DNA of 34,647 nt from Eubacterium sp. (GTDB lineage Bacteria > Bacillota > Clostridia > Lachnospirales > Lachnospiraceae), in NCBI GenBank assembly GCA_017480495.1, contig JAFVAQ010000010.1, positions 1 through 34,647 on the forward strand. Reading direction: 5' to 3'. Position 1 is the first letter of the stretch. Each line of letters begins with the position of its first letter. Both the position numbers and the translations under genes were made by a program. The notes beneath the pieces were generated by a model. That model saw nothing but the letters and a program-made list of their open reading frames with translations. It searched no databases and had not been told where the DNA came from. This document shows, in pieces, positions 12,070-16,464 of the stretch.

Positions 12070-12975
12070 TTATTTTACACAACCTCTTATCTCGTCTAGA
12101 CTATTTATGCCATTCTTACGCATAAAGTCTTCTATACCGTCGATTATTTCTATAGTTGCTGTTGGATTATTAAAATTCGAAGTACCAACAGAAACTGCTG
12201 TAGCACCAGCCATAATAAATTCAAGTGCATCCTCTGCTGTTCTGATTCCACCCATACCGATAATAGGTACATCTACAGCATTTGCAACCTGATATACCAT
12301 TCTGACAGCTACAGGTCTTACTGCAGGACCTGAAAGACCTCCAGTTTTATTTGCAAGTGCAAAGGTTCTTCTATTTATATCTATCTTCATACCTGTAATT
12401 GTGTTGATAAGGGACAGGGCATCCGCACCACCATCAACTGCAGCACGCGCCATCTCAGTAATATCAGTAACATTTGGGCTAAGCTTCATTATGAGAGGTT
12501 TCTTAGCCTTTGCCTTAAGGGCCTTTGTTATCTCATTAAGAGATTCTGGTTTTGTACCGAAAGCAATTCCACCCTCTTTTACATTAGGACAGGAAACATT
12601 TATCTCAAGTAGATCTACTGATTCTATATCACTAAGTCTCTCAACGCATTCTTCATATTCCTTTATGCTGTGTCCACACACATTTACAATTACCTTAGTA
12701 TCGTACTTTTCAAGGAACTTAAGATCTCTATCTATAAATGTATCAACGCCAGGATTCTGAAGTCCGATAGCATTTAACATTCCACCATAAACTTCAGCAA
12801 CACGTGGTGTAGGATTACCCTCCCAAGGAGTTATCGCAACTCCTTTCGTAGTAACTGCACCAAGTCTAGATAAATCCACGAACTCGCCGTATTCCATACC
12901 CGAACCAAAGGTTCCTGAAGCTACAGTAACGGGATTCTTCATTTCTACTCCACAAATATTTACAGAAGTATCCAT
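12070..12975 (-). CDS. pyrD: Dihydroorotate dehydrogenase B, catalytic subunit
   Basis: FMN enzyme converting dihydroorotate to orotate in de novo UMP synthesis. 301 aa, class 1B: FGSGMEYGEFVDL near the N-terminus, LNAIGLQNPG, the active-site loop EINVSCPNVKEGG with catalytic Cys129 (Cys marks class 1; class 2 uses Ser), MKLSPNVTDI and the FMN-phosphate site GMGGIRTAEDALEFIMAGATAVSVGT. Works as PyrD2-PyrK2 with the electron-transfer subunit encoded immediately upstream; the pyrK stop and pyrD start overlap (TAATG). Confidence 0.97.
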   Translation of the reverse strand: MDTSVNICGVEMKNPVTVASGTFGSGMEYGEFVDLSRLGAVTTKGVAITPWEGNPTPRVAEVYGGMLNAIGLQNPGVDTFIDRDLKFLEKYDTKVIVNVCGHSIKEYEECVERLSDIESVDLLEINVSCPNVKEGGIAFGTKPESLNEITKALKAKAKKPLIMKLSPNVTDITEMARAAVDGGADALSLINTITGMKIDINRRTFALANKTGGLSGPAVRPVAVRMVYQVANAVDVPIIGMGGIRTAEDALEFIMAGATAVSVGTSNFNNPTATIEIIDGIEDFMRKNGINSLDEIRGCVK

Positions 12976-13751
12976 TATAGCTCCACCTCCTCAGCATTAA
13001 ATACAGGTCCATCTACACAGATTCTCTTATTATTAACCTTTGAATGATCATCTACATCTACAGACTTACATACACAAGCGAGACATGCGCCTATTCCACA
13101 GGCCATTCTCTCTTCTAACGATATAAATGCATCTATATCTTTTTCATAAGCATAGGCCTTGATAGCTCTAAGCATTGGCTTAGGACCACAAGCATAGATC
13201 CTATCACCTGTAACACCATACTCATTTGCCGCGTCTATTACATTTCCCTTAACACCAACACTACCAGTATCACTAGACATATAAACTGTGGCAATCTTTT
13301 TAAACTCATTTAGAAGAAAAGTATTATCCCTGAAACCAAGAATAACAGTAAGCTTATCCTTAGGCACGCCTTTATCGCTAAGTTCCTTAGCCAGCTGAAG
13401 CATTGGAGGTATACCGATTCCGCCACCCATAAGAATAGGACTTTCGCAGTCGAGTTCATATCCATTTCCAATAGGTCCAACAACCTTAATAGTGTCCCCC
13501 TTCTTAAGAGTACTGAACTCCTTAGTGCCTTCTCCCACTGTTCTATAAACGAGTCTAAGCGTACCCGCTTTCTTATCTATCTCGCATATACTTATAGGGC
13601 GAGGCAGAAGTCTCGCAGAGTCCCTGGAATATAAGGATACAAACTGTCCACTATGTGCATTCTCAGTAAGCTCCTTATTCTTTATATACATGCTATATAT
13701 ATCATCAACTAAATGATCCTGTTTAATTATTTCAGCTTGAGTACTTTTCAT
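12975..13751 (-). CDS. pyrK: Dihydroorotate dehydrogenase B, electron transfer subunit
   Basis: FAD and [2Fe-2S] subunit that passes electrons from PyrD to NAD+. About 258 aa: FAD-binding RLLPRPISICEID near 50, the NAD-domain start MGGGIGIPPMLQLAKEL, and a C-terminal iron-sulphur site with Cys218, Cys223, Cys226 and Cys245 (CGIGACLAC...RICVDGPVF). The start is the ATG at 13751, preceded by AGGAG with an 8-nt spacer; the open frame extends 12 codons further to a TTG with no ribosome site. An IS110 element lies upstream where pyrF would normally run into pyrK, and I find no convincing minus-strand promoter in the 90 bp left of the element. Confidence 0.96.
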   Translation of the reverse strand: MKSTQAEIIKQDHLVDDIYSMYIKNKELTENAHSGQFVSLYSRDSARLLPRPISICEIDKKAGTLRLVYRTVGEGTKEFSTLKKGDTIKVVGPIGNGYELDCESPILMGGGIGIPPMLQLAKELSDKGVPKDKLTVILGFRDNTFLLNEFKKIATVYMSSDTGSVGVKGNVIDAANEYGVTGDRIYACGPKPMLRAIKAYAYEKDIDAFISLEERMACGIGACLACVCKSVDVDDHSKVNNKRICVDGPVFNAEEVEL

Positions 13752-13816
13752 TTCTATTTCTCCTCGTATAATATCTTTTAGATACAATAAATGTACCTTG
13801 ATAACTTAATTAAATT

Positions 13817-13845
13817 TGTTCAATAGGCTTAGTAAAGCCCATGAT
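13817..13845. repeat. Left copy of a 29-nt imperfect inverted repeat
   Basis: The reverse complement of this stretch matches 14061-14089 at 26 of 29 bases (differences at 14069, 14075 and 14081). Most of it lies outside the proposed element, in the left target flank. Its inner edge coincides with the proposed crossover TG (13842-13843). It contains the small hairpin GGCTT-AGTA-AAGCC. Confidence 0.85.
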
Positions 13846-13850
13846 ATAAT
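13845..13850 (+). promoter_or_regulatory. Left-end -10 half of the IS110 circle-junction promoter
   Basis: Perfect TATAAT. In the integrated state the bases 17 bp upstream (aatagg, 13822-13827) are not a -35, so the promoter should be weak; with the right-end TTGACA in a circle it becomes consensus. Predicted start near 13857. Confidence 0.7.
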
Positions 13851-13856
13851 TGTTCC

Positions 13857-14040
13857 TTAGTGTCAATCAGGTAATAGTTCTGTTTTCTCCTGTCGGATCA
13901 GAGAATGATCACTTCATAATTAGTCTGTTCCCCTGACATGGAAGTTAGCTTCAGACCAGCTGGCTGTTTGCTTAAGTTCATGGACTGCCTCTTAGCAGTG
14001 GGGTTCGCATTAGTCCATTTTAAGCTGGATTCTTATATGC
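13857..14040 (+). ncRNA. Candidate bridge RNA of the IS110 element
   Basis: Non-coding left end of the element, downstream of the junction -10. It folds by eye into successive stem-loops: an outer TGTCA/TGACA pairing (13861-13865 with 13934-13938) enclosing hairpin GATCA-GAGAA-TGATC (13896-13910), then GAAG-TTAG-CTTC, then a long stem with GCTTAA/TTAAGC and ATGGACT/AGTCCAT (13980-14017). TGGACTG at 13981-13987 equals the right end plus core (15483-15489), and TTATAT at 14033-14038 is the complement of the left end just after the core (13844-13849), as donor-loop guides should be. Extent and fold are inferred from known IS110 (IS621) bridge RNAs; the 3' end is uncertain. Confidence 0.5.
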
Positions 14041-14060
14041 GAGGGTGTCGATGCTCCATG

Positions 14061-14089
14061 ATCATGGGTTTTACCAAGCCGATTGAACA
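14061..14089. repeat. Right copy of the 29-nt imperfect inverted repeat, inside the IS110 leader
   Basis: Pairs with 13817-13845 at 26 of 29 bases. It lies 31 nt before the transposase ATG and overlaps the palindrome CCATGATCATGG (14056-14067). The half-site CCATGAT in that palindrome is also identical in direct orientation to the left flank plus core at 13839-13845. Confidence 0.85.
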
Positions 14090-14120
14090 CTCAAATCCAA
14101 CATAGAAAGAAGGTGAAAAA

Positions 14121-15347
14121 ATGAACCCACTTTACGTCGGTATTGATGTTAGTAGTAAATCCAATGTCGTTTACCTGATGCTCCCTGATGGTGAGAAACA
14201 CAGTAACTTCTCTGTTCCAAACTCTCAGGATGGATCAACTCAGATGATAAAGAGAATTCTTTCTGTACTTACATCTCATTCCCTTGACACTGTCATCATC
14301 GGGCTTGAAGCCACTTCAGTGTATGGTGACAATCTGGTCTATTTCTTAAGGGAAGATGCCATTCTGGCACCTTATAACAGAAAGATTCATGTTCTCAATC
14401 CCAAGCAGGTAAAGAAGTTTAAGGACTCCTACAACGACCTGCCCAAGAATGATTACATTGATTCCTTCATCATCGCTGATTGCCTGCGCTTTGGTAGAAT
14501 CAACAATGAGGTTTATGTTTCTGATTATCGCTATAAAGCTCTTCAGAACCTCACAAGGGCACGTTTTTACGCTGTCCAAAACCTCACAAAAGAAAAGCAG
14601 CGTTTTATAAACGTCCTATTCAAGAAGTATTCTACTATGACGCAGGAGAAGGTATTCTCTAATACCTTCAGCACTACTGCCTTTGCTGTCTATCAGGAGA
14701 TTGAATCTGCAGAAGCATTGGCAAATATGGACTTACAAGAGCTTACGGACTTTATTATAGAAAAAGGAAAGAACCGCTTTCCTGATCCTGATGCCGTAGC
14801 CAAAGCCATTCAGAAAGCTGCCAGAAGTTCCTACCGTTTACCCAAGACGGTGAATGACTCCGTTAATCAGGTGCTTTCTATATCCATAACCTCAATGAGG
14901 GCATTGGAAGCTCAAATCAAGGAGTTTGATAAAGCTATTGAAGCTGAAATGAAACTCCTACCAAATGTATTGACATCCATTCCCGGTATTGGTCCGGTAA
15001 TCTCAGCTGGAATAATAGCTGAAATAGGTGATATCAATCGTTTTCCTAACCAAGCAAAGCTTGGCAAATATGCAGGTCTTGCTTGGAAGCAACATCAGTC
15101 TGGAGATTTTGATTCTGAACATACCCGACTCATCCAGTCAGGTAACAGATTTCTAAAATACTATCTGTACGAAGGTGCCTTTTCTCTTGTGAGATGCGAC
15201 ACAGAGTATTCCAACTTCTATCACTCCAAATATAAGGAAGTGAACAGATTCCAGCACAAACGTGCACTCGCATTAACTGCCCGTAAATTTACGCGGTTAG
15301 TCTTTCGACTGCTGAAAGACAATCGTTTATATCGTGCAGCAGAATAG
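14121..15347 (+). CDS. IS110-family transposase (DEDD/serine recombinase)
   Basis: 408 aa. The N-terminal RuvC-like DEDD domain shows Asp9 (VGIDVSSKSN), Glu63 (GLEATSVYG) and Asp111/Asp114 (KNDYIDSFIIAD). A coiled-coil-like middle follows, then the transposase_20 domain with SIPGIGPVISAGIIAEIGDI and YAGLAWKQHQSGDF. Ser327 of QSG is in the position of the catalytic serine of IS621 (81 residues from the C-terminus here, about 85 there). Start supported by GAAGGTG before the ATG. The gene is intact, without frameshift, so the element may be active. About 80 aa longer than IS621 transposase. Orientation opposite to the pyrimidine operon, so operon read-through would be antisense to it. Confidence 0.95.
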   Translation: MNPLYVGIDVSSKSNVVYLMLPDGEKHSNFSVPNSQDGSTQMIKRILSVLTSHSLDTVIIGLEATSVYGDNLVYFLREDAILAPYNRKIHVLNPKQVKKFKDSYNDLPKNDYIDSFIIADCLRFGRINNEVYVSDYRYKALQNLTRARFYAVQNLTKEKQRFINVLFKKYSTMTQEKVFSNTFSTTAFAVYQEIESAEALANMDLQELTDFIIEKGKNRFPDPDAVAKAIQKAARSSYRLPKTVNDSVNQVLSISITSMRALEAQIKEFDKAIEAEMKLLPNVLTSIPGIGPVISAGIIAEIGDINRFPNQAKLGKYAGLAWKQHQSGDFDSEHTRLIQSGNRFLKYYLYEGAFSLVRCDTEYSNFYHSKYKEVNRFQHKRALALTARKFTRLVFRLLKDNRLYRAAE

Positions 15348-15370
15348 ATAATCATTTCTGCTGATCAACG

Positions 15371-15400
15371 CCCTGCTTTTAAAAAGCAGAAATCGCAGGG
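15371..15400 (+). terminator. Hairpin after the transposase gene, probable terminator
   Basis: CCCTGC (15371-15376) pairs with GCAGGG (15395-15400), followed by TTTATT. A competing hairpin, CTGCTTTT with AAAAGCAG, uses the same 5' arm. It lies 24 nt after the transposase stop. Confidence 0.5.
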
Positions 15401-15467
15401 TTTATTAAGGTCGCCCAATTTTCGACAAATGATATGCAAATGTATTCAAAAATGTATTAATTCATAC

Positions 15468-15473
15468 TTGACA
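15468..15473 (+). promoter_or_regulatory. Right-end -35 half of the IS110 circle-junction promoter
   Basis: Perfect TTGACA, 14 bp before the proposed core TG (15488-15489), pointing outward. In the integrated state no good -10 follows at 16-18 bp; in the circle TATAAT falls at exactly 17 bp. Confidence 0.7.
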
Positions 15474-15493
15474 TATCACCGCTGGACTGATTA

Positions 15494-16408
15494 TTAGGAT
15501 AAAGCATTAACCCTAATATCTTCTATCATATCGATTGTTGCCTGTCTAGCGGCATCCTTATAATCCATACCTGCATACTTCTCATTCTTATAAGCAGCTA
15601 TGATTCCTCTAGAGGAATTAACAATAGCGCCAAGACCATCTTCGTTGAAGAAGCCCTTAAGGTCCTTACCGCTACCTCCTTGAGCTCCGTAACCAGGAAC
15701 AAGGATATAAGCCTTAGGCATTGCTTTACGAAGGAGTATTCCCATTTCTGGGTAAGTTGCTCCGACAACAGCGCCAACATTGCTATAATCTCCATCCATA
15801 CTATCTAGCCCCCACTCAGTTACCTTATCAGCAACTATCTCGTATAGAGGTCTGCCATCAATCTCTCTATCCTGGAACTCTCCTGATGATGGATTAGAAG
15901 TCTTAACAAGAACAAATATACCTCTATCCTCTTTATTACAAACCTCGATGAATGGCTTAACACCATCTGATCCAAGATATGGATTTACAGTAACGATATC
16001 TTCATCGAATGGATATATCTTCTCTCCACAAATTTCAACTGAACCAATATGACCTACAGCATAAGCAGTTGAAGTTGAACCAATATCTCCTCTCTTGATA
16101 TCTCCAATTACAACAAGCCCCTTAGTATGCGCATAGTCAACAGTCTTCTTATAAGCAATAATACCTGGAATACCAAATTGCTCATACATAGCAACCTGAG
16201 GCTTAACAGCAGGTATCAGGTCTGCTACAGCATCCATAAGTCCAACATTATAGTCATAGATAGCATCTGCTACCGCATCAAGAGTATGACCCTTTTCAGC
16301 ATAATACTTATTCAGAAGCTCCTCTGGTATAAAGGACATCTGAGGATCAAGTCCAACTACGATAGGTGCATTTTTCTTTTTAATTTCATTTACAAGCTTT
16401 TGAATCAT
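15494..16408 (-). CDS. pyrF: Orotidine 5'-phosphate decarboxylase, type 2
   Basis: Converts OMP to UMP, the last step of de novo UMP synthesis. About 304 aa, the longer type-2 (PyrF subfamily 2) form. Visible: VVGLDPQMSFIPEEL at the substrate-binding N-terminus, NVGLMDAVADLIPAVKPQVAMYEQFG, the catalytic loop GDIKRGDIGST (102-112, Lys105), and the C-terminal LVPGYGAQGG and IVNSSRGI phosphate site. ATG at 16408 chosen because AAAGGAG lies just upstream; the frame extends 17 codons further with no ribosome site and into a hairpin. The stop codon is intact, and the IS110 right edge lies 4 bp beyond it, separating pyrF from pyrK-pyrD. Confidence 0.96.
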   Translation of the reverse strand: MIQKLVNEIKKKNAPIVVGLDPQMSFIPEELLNKYYAEKGHTLDAVADAIYDYNVGLMDAVADLIPAVKPQVAMYEQFGIPGIIAYKKTVDYAHTKGLVVIGDIKRGDIGSTSTAYAVGHIGSVEICGEKIYPFDEDIVTVNPYLGSDGVKPFIEVCNKEDRGIFVLVKTSNPSSGEFQDREIDGRPLYEIVADKVTEWGLDSMDGDYSNVGAVVGATYPEMGILLRKAMPKAYILVPGYGAQGGSGKDLKGFFNEDGLGAIVNSSRGIIAAYKNEKYAGMDYKDAARQATIDMIEDIRVNALS

Positions 16409-16423
16409 GTTTATCTCCTTTAA

Positions 16424-16464
16424 AAAAGATGACAGCCAAATGTACCCTTCAGTTGTCATCTTTT
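16424..16464 (-). terminator. Terminator of the penicillin-binding protein gene, in the pyrF leader
   Basis: On the minus strand AAAAGATGACA pairs perfectly with TGTCATCTTTT over a 19-nt loop, followed by TTAAAGGAG, the pyrF ribosome site. It can end the rho/PBP transcript; because it directly precedes pyrF it could also act as an attenuator. The loop does not match the PyrR-binding consensus as I recall it. A possible -10 (TATAAA, 16462-16467) overlaps its 5' arm. Confidence 0.65.

Follow-up and report, generated by a model that had tools for sequence, protein, structure and literature searches.

The locus and its element

The window, as we call the whole stretch of 34,647 nucleotides analysed here, holds on its minus strand a pyrK-like gene (12975-13751), identified by PF10418 as the dihydroorotate dehydrogenase B electron-transfer subunit, and a pyrF-like gene (15494-16459) for OMP decarboxylase, which was upstream of pyrK before an insertion parted them. 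PF00215 covers 15497-16414 of the latter, and its ORF as listed may start too early. Between the two genes lies an IS110-group element on the plus strand, from 13763 to 15488 with the CT core at both edges included. Its transposase of 408 residues is encoded at 14121-15347, also on the plus strand. A search of the whole window against Rfam at gathering scores found nothing over the element and five tRNA matches elsewhere; a cluster of five tRNA genes occupies positions 1-551 of the minus strand.

The transposase is recognised by domain profiles, structure-sequence matches and its catalytic residues. The ORF matches PF01548 (the DEDD RuvC-like domain) and PF02371 (Transposase_20), both over cut-off, and scores 238 bits with the NF033542 profile against a cut-off of 140. 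The earlier note on this DNA had described an intact IS110 element with Asp9, Glu63, Asp111/Asp114 and Ser327 in place. That description is borne out: the domains are there, and D9, E63, D111, D114 and S327 are all present and align with the catalytic residues of IS621, the numbering of the IS621 structure chain being offset by 2 relative to the aligned residues by our own count. The best match among solved structures by sequence is the IS110 recombinase ISCro4 (PDB 9t56, E=2.4e-14), compared by its database row and an alignment only.

Two other identities were considered and rejected. A TIGR-Tas endonuclease is excluded by the NF052498 profile, which reaches 56 bits against a cut-off of 100. 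In the IS1111 group the inverted repeats are subterminal and the transposase gene is followed downstream by the noncoding guide region; the guide region here is upstream, so membership of that group is rejected as well. The domains, the catalytic residues, a guide-bearing left end, the core dinucleotide and a junction promoter place this element in the IS110 group, with the promoter read as sequence only and the right donor guide recognised by eye. The source genome assembly, which is 65.6% complete, holds one copy. Several contigs with relatives (L168, L169, L171-L177 and others) stop within the element, which probably makes counts of copies in draft genomes too low, perhaps in the source genome too.

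The ends of the element

The earlier note placed the element at 13842 to 15489 on the strength of a promoter match that it took to fix both ends to within 1-2 bp, and it proposed aligning other copies to find where their homology stops. We queried 146 related genomes with the element plus short flanking stretches (21 matched, many by flank only) and a genome collection with the transposase protein (48 loci). The homology of many copies in other genomes continues left of 13842, to starts at 13744-13764, an outcome that the note itself had named as counting against its left end. The alignment of more distant copies stops earlier, yet their left-end motif is the same. Three genomes of the same genus are uninterrupted at this place; in them the match to the left flank reaches 13763-13773 and that to the right flank begins at 15486-15488. 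When the window's flanks are joined at the CT they are identical to the empty site of G034 at 378 of 398 positions and to that of G012 at 395 of 400, both gapless, and to that of G041 at 357 of 397 in an alignment with gaps.

We therefore take the element to be 13763-15488, because both the homology limits of the other copies and the empty sites put its ends there. The left CT core is 13763-13764: CT ends 48 of 48 left flanks, and the empty site reads CT in G034 and CC in G012 and G041. The right CT core, 15487-15488, is given by the empty sites and by the right-end motif, which finishes in CT in relatives. This core dinucleotide stands at both ends, and target duplication beyond it is absent from the empty-site alignment. 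The right edge in the earlier note was thus off by 1 bp, and its left edge, claimed to be precise, was 79 bp away from the true one. The TGAT that it took for the joint common to both edges does occur at both, but by coincidence; the bases really shared are those of the CT core. A start near 13842, with a junction promoter using the TATAAT at 13845-13850, is almost certainly wrong. Its hexamers are real, a joint at that place would set them 17 bp apart, and 33 of 38 relatives retain the inner TATAAT, but the other copies' homology past 13842 and the empty sites at 13763-13764 rule it out. The ends of this element are hard to find by eye and are now corrected; they show that a plausible promoter match can mislead.

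The predicted junction promoter

With the ends corrected, joining them at the CT brings TTGACA in the right end (15468-15473, plus strand) to 17 bp from TATAAT in the true left end (13767-13772, plus strand). The strings on which the earlier note built (TTGACA at 15468-15473, TATAAT at 13845-13850, TGAT) are all present as it said, and its idea of a junction promoter with a 17-bp spacer holds as a sequence feature; what it had wrong was the -10 hexamer and the left end. The inner TATAAT that it used lies 80 bp inside the element and, by our own count, a circle closed at the true ends would put it 95 bp from TTGACA.

The same arrangement is found in the relatives. The left-end -10 reads TATAAT in 35 of 48, TATAGT in 5, TATATT in 4, TAAAAT in 2, TATACT in 1 and TAATAT in 1. 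The right-end -35, found with a pattern that requires TTGAC, is TTGACA in 31 and TTGACT in 7 of 38. All listed right ends have 21 bases from the -35 to the core, which gives a 17-bp spacer, where the pattern allowed 20-22. Outside these 38 right ends, L053 has TTGCCA at the -35 place and L063 has lost its -35. Recurring as they do in relatives, the candidate hexamers and their spacing exceed chance. A promoter rebuilt at the circle junction is reported for IS110 elements in the parts consulted of Durrant 2024 (PMC11208160), Hiraizumi 2024 (PMC11208158) and Siddiquee 2024 (PMC11187229), so the predicted promoter here is known biology with corrected coordinates. Inspection of the left end by eye found no convincing outward promoter able to drive pyrK.

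The predicted bridge RNA

The left ends of 38 elements can be aligned, and they have the order seen in IS621: first a target loop, in which a hairpin stands between the left and the right guide, and after it a donor loop. The body of the predicted bridge RNA spans 13818-14088 on the plus strand, and a 5' leader would run from about 13779. The outer helix (13818-13845/14061-14088) encloses both loops and covaries, with changes on both sides in 14 of 28 pairs. Helix 3, the hairpin between the target guides (13896-13910), has such changes at 4 of 4 pairs, and the donor loop contains the inner helices 5 and 6 (13970-14025; 13970-13975/14020-14025 and 13980-13986/14012-14018). Helices 2 and 4 have no pairs changed on both sides in the 38 sequences. 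Over the six helices and 54 pairs 91.4% of cells are paired, against 26-44% in slid versions, a percentage that is favoured by having read the structure from the same 38 sequences; less affected by this are the pairs with changes on both sides, which number 29 against 16.1+-2.0 after shuffling.

The covariation of the outer helix means that the RNA must begin upstream of 13818, as the junction promoter would have it. One could argue instead that the integrated copy makes its bridge RNA from an extended -10 promoter of its own, inside the element at 13842-13850 (TGATATAAT), and that the junction promoter is minor. The conservation of the TATAAT at 13845-13850 mentioned above fits this idea, but an RNA from near 13857 would be without the 5' strand of the covarying helix, and four Oscillospiraceae-type members have TACAAT or TAGAAT at the inner -10 place. 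We consider an internal promoter unlikely and prefer transcription from the junction.

The guides

Four guides can be proposed, all on the plus strand. The left target guide, TTTTCTCCT (13883-13891), resembles the anti-Shine-Dalgarno sequence and is identical to the occupied target at 8 of 9 positions. The right target guide, ATAATTAG (13916-13923), would pair with the target CTGATTAT at 8 of 8 positions with one G-U. The left donor guide, ACCAGCTGG (13955-13963), agrees with ACCGCTGG in the right end apart from an additional A; its GCTGG part was tested, while the ACC part and this A were matched by eye. The right donor guide region, TTATATGCGAG (14033-14043), could pair discontiguously with CTCGTATA, a match seen by eye only. 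Two other placements were dropped. A right target guide GGATCAG directly after the left guide falls in the hairpin between the guides, and a left donor guide near 14024 gave way to the covarying match at 13955-13963.

The target guides were compared with the flanks of their own elements and with shuffled flanks. The 48 elements with both a left end and a target loop give a mean match of the left target guide to the own flank of 7.52 of 9, against 5.86+-0.14 for shuffled flanks (0 of 20,000 shuffles as good); for the right target guide, in the 37 of them with a usable right flank (that of L063 set by hand), it is 6.30 of 8 against 4.98+-0.16 (0 of 20,000). These shuffles remove relatedness among elements only in part. 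Taking one element per distinct guide leaves 7.52 against 5.79+-0.16 for 40 left guides and 6.34 against 4.89+-0.18 for 32 right guides, each 0 of 20,000. Lachnospiraceae-like elements alone give 7.21 against 6.00 on the left (33 elements) and 6.70 against 5.22 on the right (23), again 0 of 20,000 each. In the 8 Bacilli elements the left guide was equalled by 1 of 20,000 shuffles, and the right target guide did no better than shuffled flanks (2,549 of 20,000). Individual left-guide matches over the 48 are 7-9 of 9 in 41, 6 in three, 5 in L048 and 4 in L039, L044 and L121. The left donor guide follows the element's own right end in the same way: 41 elements average 4.80 of 5 against 3.42+-0.14 (0 of 20,000), 34 of the 41 being identical, with the right end of L053 entered by hand. 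Guide and right-end variants change together through ACCGG, ACCAG, GACGG, ATTAG, GCCGG, GTTGG, GCAGG and ACAGG.

The CTCCT part is common to most guides and flanks, which leaves room for the argument that a preference for gene starts comes from the protein or from accessible DNA, with the guide match secondary. We give this very little credence. The four left-guide bases outside the CTCCT part match the own flank as well, at 2.90 of 4 against 1.86+-0.13 for shuffled flanks, and in Clostridia the right guide does likewise. Fifteen flanks have another ending than CTCCT; nine of them agree with the guide of their own element at 8-9 of 9 positions, two at 7 and four at 4-5. We think the guides choose the site.

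A probable target: the Shine-Dalgarno sequence

Most of the first left flanks that we inspected end in CTCCT or near it and have CAT, CAC or CAA a few bases leftward, which is how a Shine-Dalgarno sequence (SD) and its start codon read in reverse. The window's own site, AGGAGAAATAGAAATG, lies before pyrK and behind pyrF. The target would be the SD of pyrK, AGGAG at 13760-13764 on the minus strand, which, from the sequence and the empty sites, the insertion left intact.

To count such sites we used 66 distinct left flanks of relatives, from Lachnospiraceae to Bacilli, with a recognisable left end of the CGTA type. L003/L043, L006/L084, L033, L070, L090 and L118 stand outside the 66, having no recognisable left end or too little flank, as do the phage-borne L190 and L191 and the extra copies from E. 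faecium, Priestia and Anaerostipes hominis, which were found later; L081, with CC in place of CT, was read one base off. Read on the gene strand, 65 of the 66 begin with AG, 61 with AGG and 44 with AGGAG. A loose test, in which a start codon 8-19 nt from the core opens an ORF of at least 50 codons, is passed by 56 of 66 insertion sites; among 601 CTCCT sites elsewhere 19.1% pass it, and among 4,160 random positions 12.1%. With the start codon held to 12-14 nt, 51 of 66 pass, compared with 8.2% of 638 other CTCCT sites and 3.2% of 7,200 random positions, the background being the window and 59 loci that partly overlap, and the other CTCCT sites including true SDs. Passing sites share their orientation by construction, since the test itself requires that the left end face the gene. 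Two of the ten sites that fail the loose test had just 55 bases of flank.

Survivorship could be invoked here: insertion might be wide, with only intergenic copies near starts seen and the others lost, and intergenic insertions are generally less harmful. This account is very improbable in our opinion. It does not lead one to expect that 51 of the 66 cores would stand 12-14 nt from a start codon, or that the guide would spell the SD complement and follow its own flank even at sites without CTCCT (L032, L038, L053, L126, L127). The left target guide is written as the complement of an SD (about NNNNCTCCT), and we conclude from this that the element probably enters at the SDs of genes.

The pattern extends to distant relatives. 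Eight Bacilli plasmid elements, 44-49% identical, include seven with an annotated gene start 11-14 nt from the core and one, L127, without. Two phage-borne relatives of about 42% identity also read as SD sites by eye.

Several side observations belong with the sites. In Streptococcus phage phiD12 the transposase of the relative L190 (1492-2745) is annotated as two pieces. Weak or non-standard SDs, AGTAGT for example, hold L111, L114 and L115, with good-SD copies in the same genome (L100 and L111 are two copies in G759); the copies at weak SDs are possible off-target insertions. In L062 (about 2132-2157), L116 (about 1257-1281) and L169 (about 705-729) the left terminus is doubled, with CGTATAATAT.. 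repeated over 12-13 bp right behind the target, perhaps from insertion beside an older left end. L193, L194 and L195, at 37%, 31% and 26% identity, appear near SDs and were kept out of the counts because their ends are not fixed; L192 has no usable left end on inspection. L194, which has other ends, lies at about 1174-1200 between aminoglycoside and streptothricin resistance genes on an E. faecium plasmid, and on inspection the flank in front of sat4, GTTCCCGCCT, looks similar to what is presumed to be its guide, GTTCCCCCCT.

Copies with different sites and guides

Copies within one genome or species allow guide and site to be compared among close relatives. One E. faecium element is found in 13 records with 4 distinct flanks; all read TTCCTCCT with an ATG 13-14 nt from the core, the guide is ATTTCCTCCT in all, and two of the four flanks precede ArdC-like genes. 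Priestia has six copies with 5 distinct flanks, where AACTCCCT is a poor match. In Anaerostipes hominis three copies have the guide GTTACCTCCT in common and stand at ATGCCTCCT, AAACCTCCT and ATACCTCCT, and a fourth has the guide GTTTTCTCCT at the site TGTTCTCCT. The sequences give the impression that guide and site changed together inside a single genome, and these copies with differing guides and matching sites are natural snapshots of such a change. L029 in Eubacterium uniforme (ATCC 35992), compared with window positions 13765-15344, has a transposase that is 98% identical, but it occupies the SD of a different gene, and neither of its target guides is the same. So close a likeness suggests recent transfer between genera.

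Comparison with known systems

The element is like IS621, as described in the parts consulted of PMC11208160 and PMC11208158, in its catalytic residues, its predicted left-end bridge RNA with target and donor loops, its CT core and its sigma70-like junction promoter. IS621 targets REP elements, whereas the clade of the window element targets SDs, judging by the sites. The RNA of IS621 is 177 nt long; the one predicted here differs in having an outer helix around both loops and a right target guide that seems longer. Longer right target guides are reported for some orthologues. The likeness extends to ISEc21 and other IS110/IS1111 seekRNA elements, where, in the consulted portions of PMC11187229, a noncoding region directs the choice of site and the circle junction makes a promoter. 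The target of ISEc21 is a site inside IS3-family transposase genes according to the same portions, which mention no SD target like the one proposed here.

The family, the mechanism and the junction promoter are all known. Specialisation on SDs is the part for which our full-text searches gave no precedent: in the articles consulted we found no report of an IS110 element or bridge RNA directed to an SD, ribosome-binding site or start codon, though subscription papers, preprints or supplementary target lists (Durrant's motifs) may hold one. In the consulted part of PMC11187229 the sole passage on a ribosome-binding site concerns a cargo gene.

Conclusions

We are strongly inclined to the view that this is a bridge-RNA-guided IS110 recombinase which would form a circle with a TTGACA-17-TATAAT promoter and whose left target guide aims it at the SDs of genes. 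Recombination between the two CT cores would release the circle. The joined ends would then transcribe the bridge RNA and after it the transposase, the donor guides pairing with the circle junction and the target guides with a chromosomal site. Insertion would take place at an SD with the left end facing the gene, here at the pyrF-pyrK junction, and the gene would retain its SD and start codon. A cost would lie in the 1.7 kb that now part pyrK from its upstream gene.

With somewhat less assurance, we think it probable that the whole IS110 clade, from Lachnospiraceae through Oscillospiraceae to Bacilli and with transposases down to about 42-49% identical, is specialised on SDs. The core of the guide that resembles the anti-SD would be kept while neighbouring guide bases drift with each element's own site, and the SD would serve as a landing place that is universal, independent of the host and fairly harmless. 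It is our opinion that the SD makes a good address because no host lacks it, it is not part of the coding sequence and insertion leaves it whole. An anti-SD guide might also bind mRNA in passing. Our results suggest that evolution can fit a bridge-RNA element with a guide that addresses a functional signal, here the SD, and not a repeat. If that is confirmed, direct tests would become possible of how IS110 guides come to be re-aimed and of what makes the SD a stable niche for mobile elements.
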